Assembly (NCBI GenBank): GCA_021806235.1 | Contig: JAJZXU010000017.1 | Coordinates: forward strand, 124,001-188,000 | Direction: 5' to 3' | Length of the DNA stretch: 64,000 nt | From: Thermoplasmata archaeon | GTDB lineage: Archaea; Thermoplasmatota; Thermoplasmata; Thermoplasmatales; Thermoplasmataceae | Shown: piece after piece, positions 7,654 through 15,072 of the stretch | Layout of the letters: each line of letters starts with the position of its first letter | Position numbering within the stretch: the first letter of the stretch is position 1 | Translations under genes and position numbers: made by a program | The notes under the pieces: model-generated | The model's input: only the letters and a program-made list of their open reading frames with translations | Databases searched by the model: none | What the model was told of the DNA's origin: nothing

Positions 7654-8973
7654 TTATTTCCTTTTCTTTATAACTACTGCAACTATACCTATTATTGCTA
7701 TTACTGCTATAATTCCACCTATTATATAATACTCAGTTATATTAGGAGATACATTGGAGGGATATGCTGTATTTGATACCTGTACTGTATGATTTGAGAA
7801 GTGTGGCACATATACAAATACATACATTCCAGAGCTTGTATTTATATCGGAGTAATATGCCTTGCTGGTGCTTGTTTCATTGACCAGTGTGCTCAATGAA
7901 ACTTTTGTTATAATGCTCCCATCAAATTTAACATATGCATTGCCTGTGTCCTTGGTTGCGTTTTTACCTATGAATATTGATATTATTGTTGAATGATGTA
8001 CACTTGAATTTACATTAAATGTGTTTGTTGTTGATGTACTCTTTGCATATTTTAATCCTATTGATGAGTTATAATTTATTGTTGAGTTTGTCATTGTCCC
8101 ATTAACTAAATTTAATGCTGCTTCGGCTGATATTTTACCATTAAATATGTTCTTCATAACCATTTTACTGTGTGACATATTCTGTAATCCTGGTGGTGCT
8201 ACTATGCTTACCATAGCAGTATGATTTGAGGATATTGTTATCATGTTGTGTTTAATAACAAAATTACCGTTATGGACAAAAATCATTGCTACTGTACCAT
8301 TATTATCTATCATTATCATCTTTCTACCGGCACTTATATGATTATTTGAACCTAACATCAATTGTGTTGACGTTGAAACTTTACCGAACATACTTGAATT
8401 TACGTTTGAATCAAATTTTGCATTTGCGGAGGCATTTACCTGTGTGTTGTTTGTTGTGTTGTATGTTGTTGCATATGATGGTATATTCAGATGCAGTTCT
8501 CCATCATGAACGGCTATATTTGTTTCCATGGATGGATTATTATGCAGTGCAAAAAATGATGTACTGTTCATGTGTAAGAATAGATCGCCCATAGTATATG
8601 AACTATTGTTTATCAGTAAATGTTCCTGTTGTTTCAAAAAAGAAGATAAGCTAAAAATTGAAGTTCCATTTGCATACATTTTGCTTATGAGCGTTGTTGA
8701 TGTCTGGTTATCTGTTAAATTCGTGAAAACCCCATTTTTAAATTTTGCATGCAGATACTGACCTGATATCATACCGGTTGTTGAATTATATGTTAATTTT
8801 GCACCGTAATTATGTTCTGCTTTAAAATGCCCATTTATAGTGCTGTTTATTGATGGTACACTTGCATTATTTGGTGCATAACTTGTCGAATTCCCATTAA
8901 CAGGTAATACCATTACCATTGACAAAACAATTATTGCCACCATTATTAACGAAATCATTAATTTATATTTCAT
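7654..8973 (-). CDS. Secreted, membrane-anchored Asn/Ser/Thr-rich surface protein
   Basis: About 439 residues with a signal peptide (MKYKLMISLIMVAIIVLSMVM) and a C-terminal membrane anchor (IIGGIIAVIAIIGIVAVVI followed by KKRK). The ectodomain is beta-rich, low in charge and carries dozens of N-x-S/T sequons, so it is probably heavily glycosylated and displayed outside the cell. I do not recognise a family. The start at 8973 is preceded by GGTG about 6 nt upstream; an in-frame ATG at 8988 lies too close to the TATA-like TTTAAATA at about 8997. Possibly an S-layer-like or adhesive component; function unknown. Confidence 0.75.
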   Translation of the reverse strand: MKYKLMISLIMVAIIVLSMVMVLPVNGNSTSYAPNNASVPSINSTINGHFKAEHNYGAKLTYNSTTGMISGQYLHAKFKNGVFTNLTDNQTSTTLISKMYANGTSIFSLSSFLKQQEHLLINNSSYTMGDLFLHMNSTSFFALHNNPSMETNIAVHDGELHLNIPSYATTYNTTNNTQVNASANAKFDSNVNSSMFGKVSTSTQLMLGSNNHISAGRKMIMIDNNGTVAMIFVHNGNFVIKHNMITISSNHTAMVSIVAPPGLQNMSHSKMVMKNIFNGKISAEAALNLVNGTMTNSTINYNSSIGLKYAKSTSTTNTFNVNSSVHHSTIISIFIGKNATKDTGNAYVKFDGSIITKVSLSTLVNETSTSKAYYSDINTSSGMYVFVYVPHFSNHTVQVSNTAYPSNVSPNITEYYIIGGIIAVIAIIGIVAVVIKKRK

Positions 8974-8988
8974 AAAAACACCATCCAA

Positions 8989-9294: not shown

Positions 9295-10062
9295 ATGATT
9301 TTAATTATAGCATCAAAAAAGGATAATGCAAGCATGAATATGGCAAACAGATTACTGGAATTATATGATTTTACCAGAATAAATGATGAATATTTTTATA
9401 AAAATTATAAATTGAGATTTATAAACACATTGCATATATATACCGGCTTCGATGATTTGAATGATATCGATTCGGTAATATTTTTATCTAAACATGCCTC
9501 TGCTGCAGATATTAAATCATTAACCGTTCATGCAATAGGCAATTTCAGAAAGGCAGAATTAGGTGGCCATGATAACCAAGTTGTATGCTCTGACCCTGAA
9601 CGTATGAGTTCTTCGTTAAGATATATAAAAAACAATTACAGTGATAATTATTTTGAAATTACCTTTGAGGCAACCCATCATGGACCATACATTGAGAAAC
9701 CCTCATATTTTGTTGAAATAGGCACAACTGAAAATGAATGGAATAAGGATGAAATACTGGATTTAATGGCACATTCAATAATTGATAATGATATTAAAAA
9801 TTATGGAAATTTTATCGGTATCGGTGGTGGCCATTATGCACCTAAAATAAGTGATTACTTCTTTAAGAATGAGATTAATATAGGTCATATAATACCCAAA
9901 TACGTACATGAATATATAGAAAAGCATGAAATAATAAATGCTGTGAAAAAAACACCGAACTGTAAAGGCTTTTTAATGGATAATCGTGGTACAAAATCCA
10001 GGGTTAAAACTTTTGTAAGTGAAATCTCCGATTCGGAGGGGTTAGAAGTTATAAAAATATAA
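9295..10062 (+). CDS. dtdA: D-aminoacyl-tRNA deacylase, archaeal type
   Basis: A 255-residue protein of the archaeal/plant DTD2 (GEK1) family, which removes D-amino acids from mischarged tRNA. Family signatures are visible: the FEATHHGPYIEKPSYFVEIG block near residue 125, GIGGGHYAPK near 180, and the C-terminal GHIIPKYV and NRGTKSRV segments. The conserved His residues in these motifs are thought to bind metal and contribute to catalysis. Cytosolic; apparently monocistronic with an AT-rich promoter just upstream of the ATG. Confidence 0.93.
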   Translation: MILIIASKKDNASMNMANRLLELYDFTRINDEYFYKNYKLRFINTLHIYTGFDDLNDIDSVIFLSKHASAADIKSLTVHAIGNFRKAELGGHDNQVVCSDPERMSSSLRYIKNNYSDNYFEITFEATHHGPYIEKPSYFVEIGTTENEWNKDEILDLMAHSIIDNDIKNYGNFIGIGGGHYAPKISDYFFKNEINIGHIIPKYVHEYIEKHEIINAVKKTPNCKGFLMDNRGTKSRVKTFVSEISDSEGLEVIKI

Positions 10063-10268
10063 TTAGGGTGCCTCACATGGTGGATGTTAACACTGTTAAC
10101 AGAAACCATAACCTGCTGCAGTCCTGATCCGGGTGATACCCACTTCACACCTGAAACGATGAATAAATTCTATGAATTATATAAAAATGGATGGACTAAC
10201 GGCAGAAAATCCCCCTATTTAAATACTAAAACTTTAAATATAAATTTATATTATAATTTTGAAATAAA
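10063..10268 (+). other. Intergenic stretch with a GC-richer core and promoter of the next operon
   Basis: Bases 10067-10145 are visibly richer in G+C than the flanks and contain two small hairpins (GTTAAC/GTTAAC around 10086-10100 and GGGT/ACCC near 10130). A 66-codon frame runs from 10084 to 10284 without family resemblance. TATA-like boxes TTTAAATA near 10229 and TTTAAATATA at 10233-10242 precede the next ATG at 10269. I cannot assign an RNA family. Confidence 0.35.
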
Positions 10269-11231
10269 ATGGAAAGTGAAGTAAATATAGATGCAGAGGA
10301 TGAACCACCAGGTAGTCCATTAATAAGAGAAAATAATATAGGCAATTTTTTAAATAAAGAGAATGTATTTTTAAAATATGAGGGTGCAAATCCTACAGGT
10401 ACCCAGAAGGATAGAATATCAAGGAAACATGTTGAAAATGCTATTTCTAAAGGATATGACAGAATATCTGTTGCAACATGCGGCAATTATGGTGCTTCAC
10501 TGGCATATTATGCAGAAAAATATGGTATAAAAGCCATAATAGGAATCCCCTCAGATTATTCAAATATAAGGTATGATGAAATAAAAGAATATAATGCGGA
10601 TATTATTGAAAAACCATTGAAATATGAGGAAATGGTTGAATATATAAGGGATTTATCAAATAAAAATAACTGGTATGATGCAAGCCCGGGATCTAAAAAT
10701 AAGAAAATAGATATAGAGGGTTACAGTGAAATTGCATATGAGATATATAACCAGTTGTCATATATTCCAGATTACATATCTATTCCTGTAGGCAATGGAA
10801 CAACACTATACGGAATTTATAGGGGTTTTTACGATCTTTATAGGAATAATAGGGCAGATAAGATTCCAGAATTTATTGCATCGAGTACAGTAAATGGAAA
10901 TCCTATAATTGATTCATTTTTAAATGACTATAAAAAAATTCATGAAATAAACCCAGAAAATATAATGGAAACAGAAATAAATGAGCCACTGGTATCATAC
11001 AGGTCATATGATGGACAGAATGCATTAAATGTTTTATATAAAACTGCTGGAAGGGCAGTTTATGTGACGGATGATGAGATGTGCAGGCTATCTAAAGACT
11101 TTAAAAGATATGATAATTTATCTGTGCTGCCGGCATCCACAGCAGCAGTAGCTGCAGCTTTAAGAATAGTAGATGATGAAACCTGTGTAATTGTTTTAAC
11201 TGGAAGTGATAAAATATGGAAAAGGCAGTGA
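10269..11231 (+). CDS. Threonine synthase-like PLP-dependent enzyme
   Basis: A 320-residue fold-type II PLP protein. The cofactor Lys is in ANPTGTQKDR, a substrate-loop motif is ATCGNYGASLAYYA, and the phosphate-binding turn is PVGNGTTLYG, all as in threonine synthase. It is shorter than most stand-alone threonine synthases and starts directly with the PLP domain. It is the first gene of a tight trio: its 3' end overlaps the DUF1611 gene by 16 nt, which in turn overlaps a PP-loop gene. The context suggests beta-replacement or elimination on an activated amino acid in an unassigned pathway, rather than simple threonine synthesis; homoserine kinase is not next to it. Confidence 0.8.
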   Translation: MESEVNIDAEDEPPGSPLIRENNIGNFLNKENVFLKYEGANPTGTQKDRISRKHVENAISKGYDRISVATCGNYGASLAYYAEKYGIKAIIGIPSDYSNIRYDEIKEYNADIIEKPLKYEEMVEYIRDLSNKNNWYDASPGSKNKKIDIEGYSEIAYEIYNQLSYIPDYISIPVGNGTTLYGIYRGFYDLYRNNRADKIPEFIASSTVNGNPIIDSFLNDYKKIHEINPENIMETEINEPLVSYRSYDGQNALNVLYKTAGRAVYVTDDEMCRLSKDFKRYDNLSVLPASTAAVAAALRIVDDETCVIVLTGSDKIWKRQ

Positions 11232-12244
11232 TATTATCCGAGGGGGTTTTTGCAACAACCTATGGCAAAACGGCAAATGGTCTTGTAAGGTATAGCAAGC
11301 GTTATGATGTAGTTGCAGTTATAGATTCAAGATATTACGGCCTGGATGCAGGATATGTTTTAATGGGCAAGGAGAGGGGAATAAAAATTATAAGCAACAT
11401 AACCGAGGCAAAAAATCTTGGCTGTGAAACCTTTATAATAGGTGTTGCAACGGATGGGGGTTATTTACCACTTGAATACAGAAAATATGTTTCGGATGCC
11501 ATAGCGGCCGGAATGAATATAGTGAATGGTTTACACCAGTACATAAGTGATGATCCGGAATTCAGTAAATTAGCAAAAATATATAATGTAAAAATAACGG
11601 ATGTAAGAAAAATTTTTAATAAATACGAATATACGTTTACCGGTAAAATAGAGGGAGTAAAATCAAAGAAAATAGCTATTTTAGGGACTGATAGTGCTAT
11701 AGGAAAAAGAACTACAGCAGTTTATTTAAATAAGGCAATGAATGATATCGGTAAAACCTCTGAGTTAATAGGTACAGGTCAAACATCGTGGATGCAGGGA
11801 TTTAAATATACCGTGGTTATGGACTCAATAATAAATGATTTTGTTGCTGGTTCTTTAGAGTATATAACATACCAGGCATGGCTGGAGAAAAAACCGGAAT
11901 ATATGTTTCTTGAGGGGCAGGGATCTATACTGCATCCTGCTTACCCGGGAGGATTTGAAATCATAGGTGCAATGAGGCCTGACGCAATAATACTGCAGCA
12001 TGCACCGAAAAGGAAATACTACGATGGGTTTCCGGAATATCCTATAGAATCACTGGATAAATATATCAGGGTTCTGGAACTTGTATCAAATAAAAGGGTT
12101 ATGGCAATATCGCTGAATACAGAAAACATGAAGGACAATGAGGTATCTATAGAAAAAGAAAAACTTAGAAAGAAATATAATATACCTGTTTTTGATCCAC
12201 TGGAAGAATTTGAGAAAATTACGGATGCAATCGTTGATTTATAA
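11216..12244 (+). CDS. DUF1611 family P-loop protein (DgcN-like)
   Basis: A 342-residue protein of the DUF1611 family: an N-terminal Rossmann-like domain (GKTANGLVRYS; FIIGVATDGGYLP) and a C-terminal P-loop domain with Walker A GTDSAIGKRTTA (about residue 158) and a Walker B-like YMFLEGQGS, followed by AYPGGFE. In bacteria the relative DgcN acts with an enolase-superfamily racemase (DgcA) in D-glutamate metabolism; no such partner is seen here. It overlaps the threonine-synthase-like gene upstream and shares a TAATG stop/start with the PP-loop gene downstream, so the three are probably translated together. The reaction in this organism is not known. Confidence 0.8.
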   Translation: MEKAVILSEGVFATTYGKTANGLVRYSKRYDVVAVIDSRYYGLDAGYVLMGKERGIKIISNITEAKNLGCETFIIGVATDGGYLPLEYRKYVSDAIAAGMNIVNGLHQYISDDPEFSKLAKIYNVKITDVRKIFNKYEYTFTGKIEGVKSKKIAILGTDSAIGKRTTAVYLNKAMNDIGKTSELIGTGQTSWMQGFKYTVVMDSIINDFVAGSLEYITYQAWLEKKPEYMFLEGQGSILHPAYPGGFEIIGAMRPDAIILQHAPKRKYYDGFPEYPIESLDKYIRVLELVSNKRVMAISLNTENMKDNEVSIEKEKLRKKYNIPVFDPLEEFEKITDAIVDL

Positions 12245-13656
12245 TGTATATCGATAATATAATTTCATTCAATAATATTGAGGTAAATGTAACCGGAATA
12301 GAGAAAAAAAGGATAATAGGAAATATAAAAATTGATGGGCGTGATTTTAAATTAATTTTTACATATAATGATGAAATAAATGTAAATGAAAATATAGCAG
12401 GTTTAATATTAACAATGCCCGTTATAAATTTCACATATTTTTCCAGAAAATTAACATTAAATTATCCCGTTTCGGAAAATGATAGGGATTTAATGAATAA
12501 ATTCATGAAGATAAATGCACATGAAGTTTTTATAAATAAAATAATAAACAGAAGGTATGATTTTATAAAGGAGGAATATTTACCTGAAGAAAAGGATATA
12601 AATGAGTATAATGCCTCAGGTATTACGGAATTAGTCTGCAATAAAAAGTTTGATGATAATTATAATAATATTATTGATAAACAGAAAGTAATGATAATGT
12701 CCTCCAGTGGCAAGGAAAGTTTACTTGCATATGGAATTTTTAATGAGATAAATAATAATGATAAAAATTATTCATTTTATTTTGAGGAATCTGGATCACA
12801 CTGGCTTACTGCTAAAACCGCATATGATTATTATAATAAAAATTTTAATAATGTGAAAAAGGTATGGTCAAATGCTGATAGATTTTATCATGAAACATTA
12901 AAATATATAAAAATCATAAAAATGGAGAATATAGATATAAGATCAGATGATTATCCAATTACAGTTTTTATATTTCCAGTTTATATATTTCTGTTAATCC
13001 CATTACTATTAAAATATAACATAGGCAATATAATAATGGGCGATGAATTAGATGACCCCAGAGAGATGAATGATTTTCATGGATTAAAATATTATTATGG
13101 AATATTTGACCAGACATACGATTTCAATGAAATGATTTCTGAATACTTTAAAAACAAAAAAATTGGTTCATATGTTTATTCAGTGGTTTATCCTGTTACC
13201 GGTTACATGGAGGAAAAAATTTTAATGGACAGGTATCACAGTTTATATTTAAACCAGAGGTCATGCCATTCATGCCATGAAAAGGATAATAGAATATATC
13301 CGTGTGGCAAATGCTCCAAATGTTTAGGCATTTTATTGTTTATAGATGCAAATAATGGCAATCCCCAGGAGATCCTGTATAACAGTGATGATGAAAGGTT
13401 ATTAAAAAAAAGGGTGAAAAATTCAAGACTGAGACTGGATCCGGATGAGATAAATTATACTGAAATGAAACTTAAATTTATTGATGGTAATTACCGTGAT
13501 TACGATCATGTGGATGGAATACATATAATGCCATATGAAAATAAACCATTTTCAGTAATACCTGATAATTTTAGAAATGAGGTATATGAAATATTTAATA
13601 AATATTCGAATGGCATGTATAAATTGAAAAACAGTGAATGGGTAAAATTAGATTAA
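12244..13656 (+). CDS. PP-loop ATPase-like protein with QueC-like Cys cluster
   Basis: A 470-residue protein I cannot name. A PP-loop-like nucleotide motif SSSGKESLLAYG appears near residue 157. A region with IIMGDELDDPRE follows, and then a metal-binding cluster SCHSCHEKDNRIYPCGKCSKC near residue 341 that resembles the zinc site of QueC-type enzymes. PP-loop enzymes adenylate a carbonyl or carboxylate. The first 150 residues look like a separate beta-rich domain. It shares a 1-nt TAATG junction with the DUF1611 gene. The combination suggests ATP-dependent amidation or ligation of a small molecule made by the operon; this is inference. Confidence 0.65.
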   Translation: MYIDNIISFNNIEVNVTGIEKKRIIGNIKIDGRDFKLIFTYNDEINVNENIAGLILTMPVINFTYFSRKLTLNYPVSENDRDLMNKFMKINAHEVFINKIINRRYDFIKEEYLPEEKDINEYNASGITELVCNKKFDDNYNNIIDKQKVMIMSSSGKESLLAYGIFNEINNNDKNYSFYFEESGSHWLTAKTAYDYYNKNFNNVKKVWSNADRFYHETLKYIKIIKMENIDIRSDDYPITVFIFPVYIFLLIPLLLKYNIGNIIMGDELDDPREMNDFHGLKYYYGIFDQTYDFNEMISEYFKNKKIGSYVYSVVYPVTGYMEEKILMDRYHSLYLNQRSCHSCHEKDNRIYPCGKCSKCLGILLFIDANNGNPQEILYNSDDERLLKKRVKNSRLRLDPDEINYTEMKLKFIDGNYRDYDHVDGIHIMPYENKPFSVIPDNFRNEVYEIFNKYSNGMYKLKNSEWVKLD

Positions 13657-13833: not shown

Positions 13834-14090
13834 TTAATAAACATCTTTTCTATGTTCAAAACGTAAAAGTATGAGTCCTTTTCCCATAACAGTGTATATT
13901 AGTCTATATGGTGGAATCTTTATGGTACGTTCCCCTCTCAATGCATATCTAAGTGGCCTTCCAAGTTCTGGATATTCTATCAGTTTTCTGATGTGTTTTT
14001 CTAATTTCTCCTTTTTTTTATGTCCTTCAGTTTTTTTACTTCATGTTCAAATTCAGAGGTATATACGATTTCATCTATCAATATTACCAT
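13834..14090 (-). pseudogene. RelE/ParE-family toxin, frameshifted in an A8 tract
   Basis: Starts 4 nt before the end-side of the AbrB gene (ATG at 14090, antitoxin stop at 14084-14086), as in type II toxin-antitoxin operons. The frame runs MVILIDEIVYTSEFEHEVKK, then hits a stop shortly after a run of eight A residues (14012-14019). Adding one A restores an 85-residue RelE-like protein: KLIEYPELGRPLRYALRG, then the conserved PPYRLIYTV and LLRFEHRKDVY. The lesion may be a true mutation, a sequencing error in a homopolymer, or a slippage switch. Confidence 0.8.
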
Positions 14091-14365
14091 TCCTTAAATT
14101 CTTTAAAGAAATCGTCCTTTAATTTAATTTTATAATTCCCCTTCTCTATATCTTTCCAGGTTTCTTCAATAGATCTGAGCGTTTTCAGGTCAGCAGCAGA
14201 AATTTCTGAATCGACCTTCTTCAAAATTATCATATTATCTTTTGCTGTAACTGCAAATAAACTCCCATTACCAATGTTAAGTTTTTTTCTTATGCCAGAT
14301 GGAATAACAATTTGTCCTTTAGAACTGGTTTTCGTGAACTCTGTTTCAATAGTTTTATCACTCAT
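14084..14365 (-). CDS. AbrB/SpoVT-family antitoxin
   Basis: A 93-residue protein with an N-terminal swapped-hairpin DNA-binding domain (TKTSSKGQIVIPSGIRKKLN, then GSLFAVTAKDNMIILKK) and an acidic-basic C-terminal tail of the type that wraps a toxin. Such antitoxins neutralise a co-encoded mRNA endonuclease and repress their own operon. It overlaps the downstream RelE-like toxin gene, which is frameshifted. The first gene of the pair; an AT-rich block follows the start on the upstream side. Confidence 0.88.
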   Translation of the reverse strand: MSDKTIETEFTKTSSKGQIVIPSGIRKKLNIGNGSLFAVTAKDNMIILKKVDSEISAADLKTLRSIEETWKDIEKGNYKIKLKDDFFKEFKEW

Positions 14366-14577: not shown

Positions 14578-15072
14578 TTAAAAATATAGGTTTTCTGTTT
14601 CAATGCAATCTTCATTGCTATTACATTTTATATAATCATTTAATGGCTCTATATTTGTTTTTATAAAATTCTGGGACCATGAATACTTTGATATAATATC
14701 TCCGGCAAGGTCATTATATCCCATAATAAAAAGTGCCGCTGCCAGAGCTTCCAGGGATGATAATTTACCGGGCTTGCCATAATTAACAGGATTGACTGGC
14801 AATAATAATGGTAATTTTCTAGAATTTTTACTTTTTATATTTTCTATTGTGCTTATTAAATTCCAGGAGCCATCTATTACAACAATGCCCTTCTCTTCAT
14901 AGATAAATCTATCCTTATTTAATATATAATTATCTGAATATGGGGTCAGAAATAATTTATTATAAATTTTGCTTAACGGTATCCTCTTTGTAATATTATA
15001 CCTCTCAAGTTTTTTCATTGTGGATTTTTTTGGGTCGTCCTGCTTTAAATAAACGTAAAAAATTTTTGCCAT
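14578..15072 (-). CDS. tsr3: Tsr3-type rRNA aminocarboxypropyltransferase
   Basis: A 164-residue protein of the Tsr3/DUF367 family, which transfers the aminocarboxypropyl group of SAM to an N1-methylpseudouridine in small-subunit rRNA. Family marks are DGSWN (usually DCSWN), then KLPLLLPVNPVNYGKPGKLS, LEALAAALFIMGY and the terminal WSQNFIKTNIEPLNDY. The Cys-to-Gly change in the DCSW motif is a small deviation. Monocistronic, facing away from pyrG. Confidence 0.9.
   Translation of the reverse strand: MAKIFYVYLKQDDPKKSTMKKLERYNITKRIPLSKIYNKLFLTPYSDNYILNKDRFIYEEKGIVVIDGSWNLISTIENIKSKNSRKLPLLLPVNPVNYGKPGKLSSLEALAAALFIMGYNDLAGDIISKYSWSQNFIKTNIEPLNDYIKCNSNEDCIETENLYF

Follow-up and report, generated by a model that had tools for sequence, protein, structure and literature searches.

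A three-gene operon in Thermoplasmatales

The window, by which we mean the whole 64,000-nt stretch of a Thermoplasmata archaeon contig (JAJZXU010000017.1) that was analyzed, contains three overlapping genes, here called THR, DUF, and PP (Table 1). THR and DUF overlap by 16 nt, and DUF and PP share 1 nt at a TAATG junction. This is the operon that a sequence-only reading of the window had described, and the same arrangement recurs in other genomes, close relatives being found in Ferroplasma, Acidiplasma, and Thermoplasma. A possible archaeal TATA-like box upstream of THR is consistent with a leaderless transcript of the operon. Scans for bacterial-type promoters and terminators at the locus remained at chance level, and no RNA features or tRNAs were found there.

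Table 1. Features of the operon and its surroundings. Positions are those of the window unless a locus is named.
Feature	Position	Strand	Remarks
Ser/Thr/Asn-rich protein	7654-8988	-	444 aa; N-terminal signal-like helix, C-terminal hydrophobic segment; no Pfam match
DTD2 (D-aminoacyl-tRNA deacylase)	9295-10062	+	PF04414, 9.6e-61
Possible TATA-like box, TTTAAATA	10233..10240	+	~29 nt before the THR start; read from the sequence
THR (fold-type II PLP enzyme)	10269-11231	+	320 aa
THR predicted PLP lysine, K47	10407-10409	+	
DUF (DUF1611 protein, DgcN-like)	11216-12244	+	342 aa; Rossmann-like N domain and P-loop C domain
DUF P-loop GTDSAIGK, residues 157-164	11684..11707	+	G157, D159, G163, and K164 invariant in 44 sequences
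PP (PP-loop, QueC-fold protein; remote MurL relative)	12244-13656	+	470 aa
PP pyrophosphate-binding motif, residues 153-159	12700..12720	+	Counterpart of SGGxDS in QueC
PP cysteine cluster, C341, C344, C354, C357, C360	13264..13323	+	Invariant in alignment A1
Small protein	14084-14365	-	Resembles AbrB-type DNA-binding antitoxins
Tsr3-like gene (rRNA aminocarboxypropyltransferase)	14578-15072	-	Ribo_biogen_C domain, PF04034; convergent, downstream of PP
RimI-like GNAT genes	L086:3658-4212, L096:9370-9834, L098:9265-9744, L094:9388-10059		

In most Thermoplasmatales, the gene downstream of PP is the Tsr3-like one, whereas a convergent RimI-like GNAT gene takes this place beside PP in Bathyarchaeota, deep Thermoplasmata, and Myxococcales. 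Synteny is thus the likelier reason for the Tsr3 adjacency, and a functional link of the operon with Tsr3 was set aside, since the GNAT that occupies the same place in Bathyarchaeota and Myxococcales is unrelated.

Conservation and co-occurrence of the three genes

Gene spacing is very short or negative across the 66 named loci, with DUF immediately 5′ of PP in 63 of them and THR, wherever it is present (52 loci), immediately 5′ of DUF. The operon is found in Thermoplasmata and Bathyarchaeota (loci L086, L096, and L098), and its arrangement, seen again in dozens of independent genomes, is not due to chance. In a sample of 300 genomes of the class, PP was present in 61, DUF in 144, and THR, counted at E-values below 1e-60, in 71. 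THR was always accompanied by DUF (71/71; Fisher p 1e-28), and PP occurred together with DUF in 60 of 61 genomes, the sole exception being a genome of 83% completeness.

The genes are not adjacent everywhere. In family f4, THR is often located elsewhere in the genome, and in family f3 it is mostly absent while DUF-PP is kept, indicating that DUF-PP forms the core and THR is a close partner. In a Myxococcales genome, the set is split between two contigs, one with THR-DUF and the other with PP; the homologues there show 41% identity to THR and, for the adjoining DUF1611, 44%. The sequence-only reading had taken the overlaps to imply one function and had regarded scattered genes in relatives as evidence against it. 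Such scattering does occur in f4 and Myxococcales, but the genome-wide co-occurrence persists, and the independent retention of scattered genes argues for one function. Conserved linkage and co-occurrence thus support the view that the three genes form one functional unit.

Members of family f10 carry a THR-DUF1611-GNAT operon without PP (L117:3882-6363, L118:3581-5985, L119:2478-4980) and a second DUF1611 gene, in the vicinity of which lie a DgcA-type epimerase gene and one similar to beta-RFAP synthase (L120, L121). As THR-DUF is joined here to GNAT instead of PP, and the second DUF1611 gene lies by DgcA, THR appears to have a role of its own.

A decayed second copy of PP, with many stops, is present in a sister genome (G148:C43:10748-11239). 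No PP relatives were found on viral contigs or in a search of plasmids.

THR is a ThrC-derived enzyme with a probably different substrate

THR matches the PALP family in Pfam (6.8e-53) and passes the “threonine synthase” equivalog NF004996 (PRK06381) with 418.7 bits at a cut-off of 266, so that it would be labelled “threonine synthase”. It stays below the cut-off of the ThrC equivalog TIGR00260 (89.0 vs 167.1 bits), and the same genome encodes, on another contig, a canonical ThrC that scores 251.6 bits against this cut-off of 167.1.

Comparison of 53 family members with the ThrC proteins of Thermus, Mycobacterium, and Aquifex at the ligand positions contradicts the label. In Thermus ThrC we take T88, N154, and R160 to be the ligands of the substrate phosphate, following the 1V7C work. 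T88 and R160 are absent from all 53 THR relatives and N154 is kept in only seven; the canonical ThrC of the same genome retains all three. T85 is replaced by Cys in 53/53 and T88 by Tyr in 52/53 relatives, and the motifs TCGNY and NEPL stand where ThrC has STGNT and IGNP. The AlphaFold model of THR (pLDDT 88) has ThrC as its nearest solved fold, followed by serine racemase. THR thus resembles ThrC in overall fold and in the PLP lysine region (NPTGxxKDR), but differs from it in the substrate-phosphate ligands and in the STGNT and IGNP motifs. THR is a ThrC-derived PLP enzyme with a presumably different substrate, and the widely applied label “threonine synthase” is probably wrong. The view of the sequence-only reading that the operon does not serve plain threonine synthesis is borne out by the separate ThrC and by the missing phosphate ligands.

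DUF is a relative of the D-glutamate acetyltransferase DgcN

DUF shows the two-domain architecture of DUF1611 proteins (DUF1611_N, PF17396, 3.5e-27; DUF1611, PF07755, 1.4e-60) and its homology to the solved DUF1611 structures 2g0t, 7xrj, and 2obn is clear. Across 44 DUF1611 relatives including DgcN, 14 residues are invariant, among them GTDxxxGK and GQ. DUF and DgcN thus share the same invariant core, and both are translationally coupled to a partner enzyme, but DUF belongs to another DUF1611 clade and scores 174.4 bits against the DgcN equivalog NF041892, below its cut-off of 480. In the tree, the PP-linked DUFs form one clade (100/99), and its sister group consists of further Thermoplasmata DUFs, part of them located near DgcA.

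DgcN is a D-glutamate N-acetyltransferase and DgcA a racemase of the enolase superfamily; the respective annotations are “N-acetyltransferase” and “N-acetyl-D-Glu racemase”. As cited in PMC12363236, Yu et al. 2023 describe the two as a D-glutamate catabolic module of marine Proteobacteria and haloarchaea. DUF1611 genes elsewhere adjoin a DgcA-type dipeptide epimerase or, in some cases, overlap a PLP alanine/ornithine racemase gene, and several others stand solo. The operon resembles the DgcN/DgcA module in that DUF1611 relatives of the same class lie near DgcA-type epimerases. In contrast to this module, it lacks an adjoining DgcA; its other two genes encode a MurL-like PP-loop protein and a PLP enzyme resembling ThrC. 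An amino-acid-derived substrate, in line with the amino-acid-derived metabolite suggested by the earlier reading, is supported, the candidate itself being proposed below.

PP combines a QueC-type fold with weak similarity to MurL

The structure model of PP (pLDDT 86, pTM 0.88) gave QatC (E 2.6e-5) and Cap9 (E 0.034) as top Foldseek matches, and we predict from it a PP-loop fold of the QueC type that is extended at the N terminus; QatC itself carries N- and C-terminal extensions (PMC13279940). The pyrophosphate-binding motif reads SSSGKES here and usually SSGGKES in relatives, and S153, S154, G156, K157, E158, and S159 are invariant in alignment A1. The cysteine cluster noted from the sequence is present, with SCHSCH at residues 340-345 and CGKCSKC at residues 354-360, and 18 relatives all retain C341, C344, C354, C357, and C360. 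By analogy with QueC and QatC, whose zinc site in QatC is formed by C334, C354, C357, and C360 (PMC13279940), the cluster is a probable zinc site.

PP thus shares with QueC, QatC, and Cap9 the fold, the PP-loop, and the C-terminal cysteine cluster, but differs from them in its neighbors, in the absence of a significant sequence-family match, and in its motifs: QueC has SGGxDS and C-x8-CxxCxxC, PP has SGGKES, with Glu for Asp, and C344-x9-CxxCxxC. A canonical QueC was rejected, since the Pfam score for QueC (PF06508) is sub-threshold (12.6 vs a gathering cut-off of 22 bits, E 0.099), NCBIfam gives no QueC match, and the same genome has a true QueC of its own. The term “QueC-like” used in the sequence-only reading therefore holds for the fold but not for the sequence, where MurL is the only curated family that recurs at one fixed collinear place.

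When 18 diverse PPs were scanned singly, MurL (NF041275) was the best or only NCBIfam match in eight (E 5e-4 to 0.1). The matches span ~80-90 PP residues around the cysteine cluster and always fall at MurL positions ~259-358, whereas the MurL profile matched neither true QueC nor GMP synthase. The PP scores of 11.1-18.6 bits lie below the family cut-off of 700 bits, and such weak matches could reflect the shared QueC-type fold alone.

MurL epimerizes N-acyl-glutamate while converting ATP to AMP (PMC5808125, PMC8788868), and a DgcN-like enzyme would provide just such a substrate. PP and MurL are similar in length (470 vs 447), match weakly but collinearly in the same segment, and would be expected to share ATP-dependent chemistry. 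They differ in that the profile score is very low, in that PP is partnered by DUF1611 and THR and MurL by MurD2, and in that the archaeal hosts of PP are not expected to have peptidoglycan. Among the recurring operon neighbors, the families of which are annotated in part, no Mur-ligase family was recognized. MurL, reported to be devoid of recognized domains, could itself have the QueC/PP-loop fold, and this would explain its use of ATP to give AMP.

PP and DgcA across genomes

Counting DgcA-like epimerases at E-values of at most 1e-50 in the 300 class genomes, we found strong DgcA in 73 of 84 DUF-positive genomes without PP vs 16 of 60 with PP (p 1e-13), a complementarity that stems largely from a single clade-level loss in family f1 and has a p of 0.037 outside this family; f3 and f4 usually carry both. 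Both p-values disregard shared ancestry. Only 8 of 156 genomes without DUF have DgcA, indicating that DgcA is linked to DUF1611 within the class. The distribution suggests that PP is able to stand in for DgcA.

A candidate pathway and its alternatives

Starting from the operon, its conservation, and the observed homologies, we infer what each protein does, on which substrate, and in which direction a pathway would run. Tentatively, and as somewhat short of probable, we read the operon as a variant of the DgcN/DgcA-type D-amino-acid module whose DgcA step is taken over by an ATP-dependent epimerase resembling MurL. DUF would N-acylate a D-amino acid, for which D-glutamate or some other acidic amino acid is the likeliest candidate. 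PP would use ATP to activate the alpha-carboxylate of this N-acyl product, with release of AMP and pyrophosphate, so that the alpha-carbon could epimerize; in bacteria and haloarchaea, DgcA carries out this step. The step of THR, which requires the amino group to be free, would precede acylation or follow deacylation; no deacylase was recognized adjoining the operon. Catabolic recycling is a more likely direction than synthesis. Against a catabolic role stands that MurL runs from L to D only and the reverse would be needed, and against the module reading that the acetyltransferase activity of DgcN belongs to a different DUF1611 subfamily than DUF, that the MurL scores are weak, that the complementarity of PP and DgcA comes mostly from family f1, and that THR-DUF is joined to GNAT in f10. 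The full proposal, in which a MurL-like PP-loop enzyme epimerizes an N-acyl amino acid via an adenylate, is fed by a DUF1611 acyltransferase, and is coupled to a new ThrC-derived PLP class, in archaea not expected to have peptidoglycan and in a few bacteria, with MurL placed in the QueC/PP-loop fold, is possible but doubtful. A search of the literature on DUF1611, DgcN, and MurL-QueC did not turn up this three-gene combination.

Rather than epimerizing, PP might be a QueC-type amide- or nitrile-forming ligase that joins an activated carboxylate to ammonia or an amine, with THR and DUF making an unusual amino acid and the product being a small metabolite or cofactor of archaea. Amidation or adenylation is the usual chemistry of N-type PP-loop enzymes, the PP model matches QatC and Cap9, and the PP-loop and CxxC cluster are conserved. 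Archaea-restricted QueC-like clusters have moreover been left without function in PMC13329287. We nevertheless consider a ligase rather unlikely: MurL recurs in NCBIfam where neither QueC nor QatC matches PP, DUF relatives are linked to isomerases and not to ligases, and no glutaminase or amidotransferase gene was recognized in the operon. That QatC and Cap9 top the Foldseek list could also mean that PP modifies a protein N terminus like Cap9 in type IV CBASS, the operon being a defense or protein-modification system. This is barely credible, as the neighborhoods look housekeeping and vertically conserved; an anti-phage Qat/CBASS system was rejected, since no CBASS or qat partner genes were recognized, PADLOC gives a weak QueC only, and relatives on viral contigs are lacking.

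Other readings center on THR. Fold-type II includes D-serine dehydratase, and THR could be a D-amino-acid lyase in an operon that, with the upstream DTD2, clears D-amino acids that would mischarge tRNA. In line with this, DUF1611 is tied to D-amino acid enzymes, and DTD2 lies directly 5′ of THR in 31 of 66 loci while the genes further upstream vary. However, the DTD2 linkage is limited to family f1, a 207-nt gap between DTD2 and THR suggests separate transcription, THR is mostly missing from f3 while DUF-PP stays, and the THR activity is itself a proposal, so that such a detoxification role seems improbable. Still less can be said for THR as a genuine threonine synthase in an operon that merely co-packages unrelated amino-acid genes. 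The NF004996 score and ThrC as the nearest solved fold would fit, but with the canonical ThrC elsewhere in the genome, the phosphate-site residues T88 and R160 lost throughout the family, and THR found only with DUF1611, this is very improbable, and plain threonine synthase was rejected for THR.

Significance

The variant D-amino-acid module that we tentatively favor would suggest that metabolism in Thermoplasmatales routinely includes a D-amino-acid or N-acyl-amino-acid pathway, and the operon provides candidate substrates for DUF1611 subfamilies. For MurL, which was the first ATP-consuming epimerase to become known and has been put forward as a target for narrow-spectrum antibiotics, it would also offer a fold and a mechanism.
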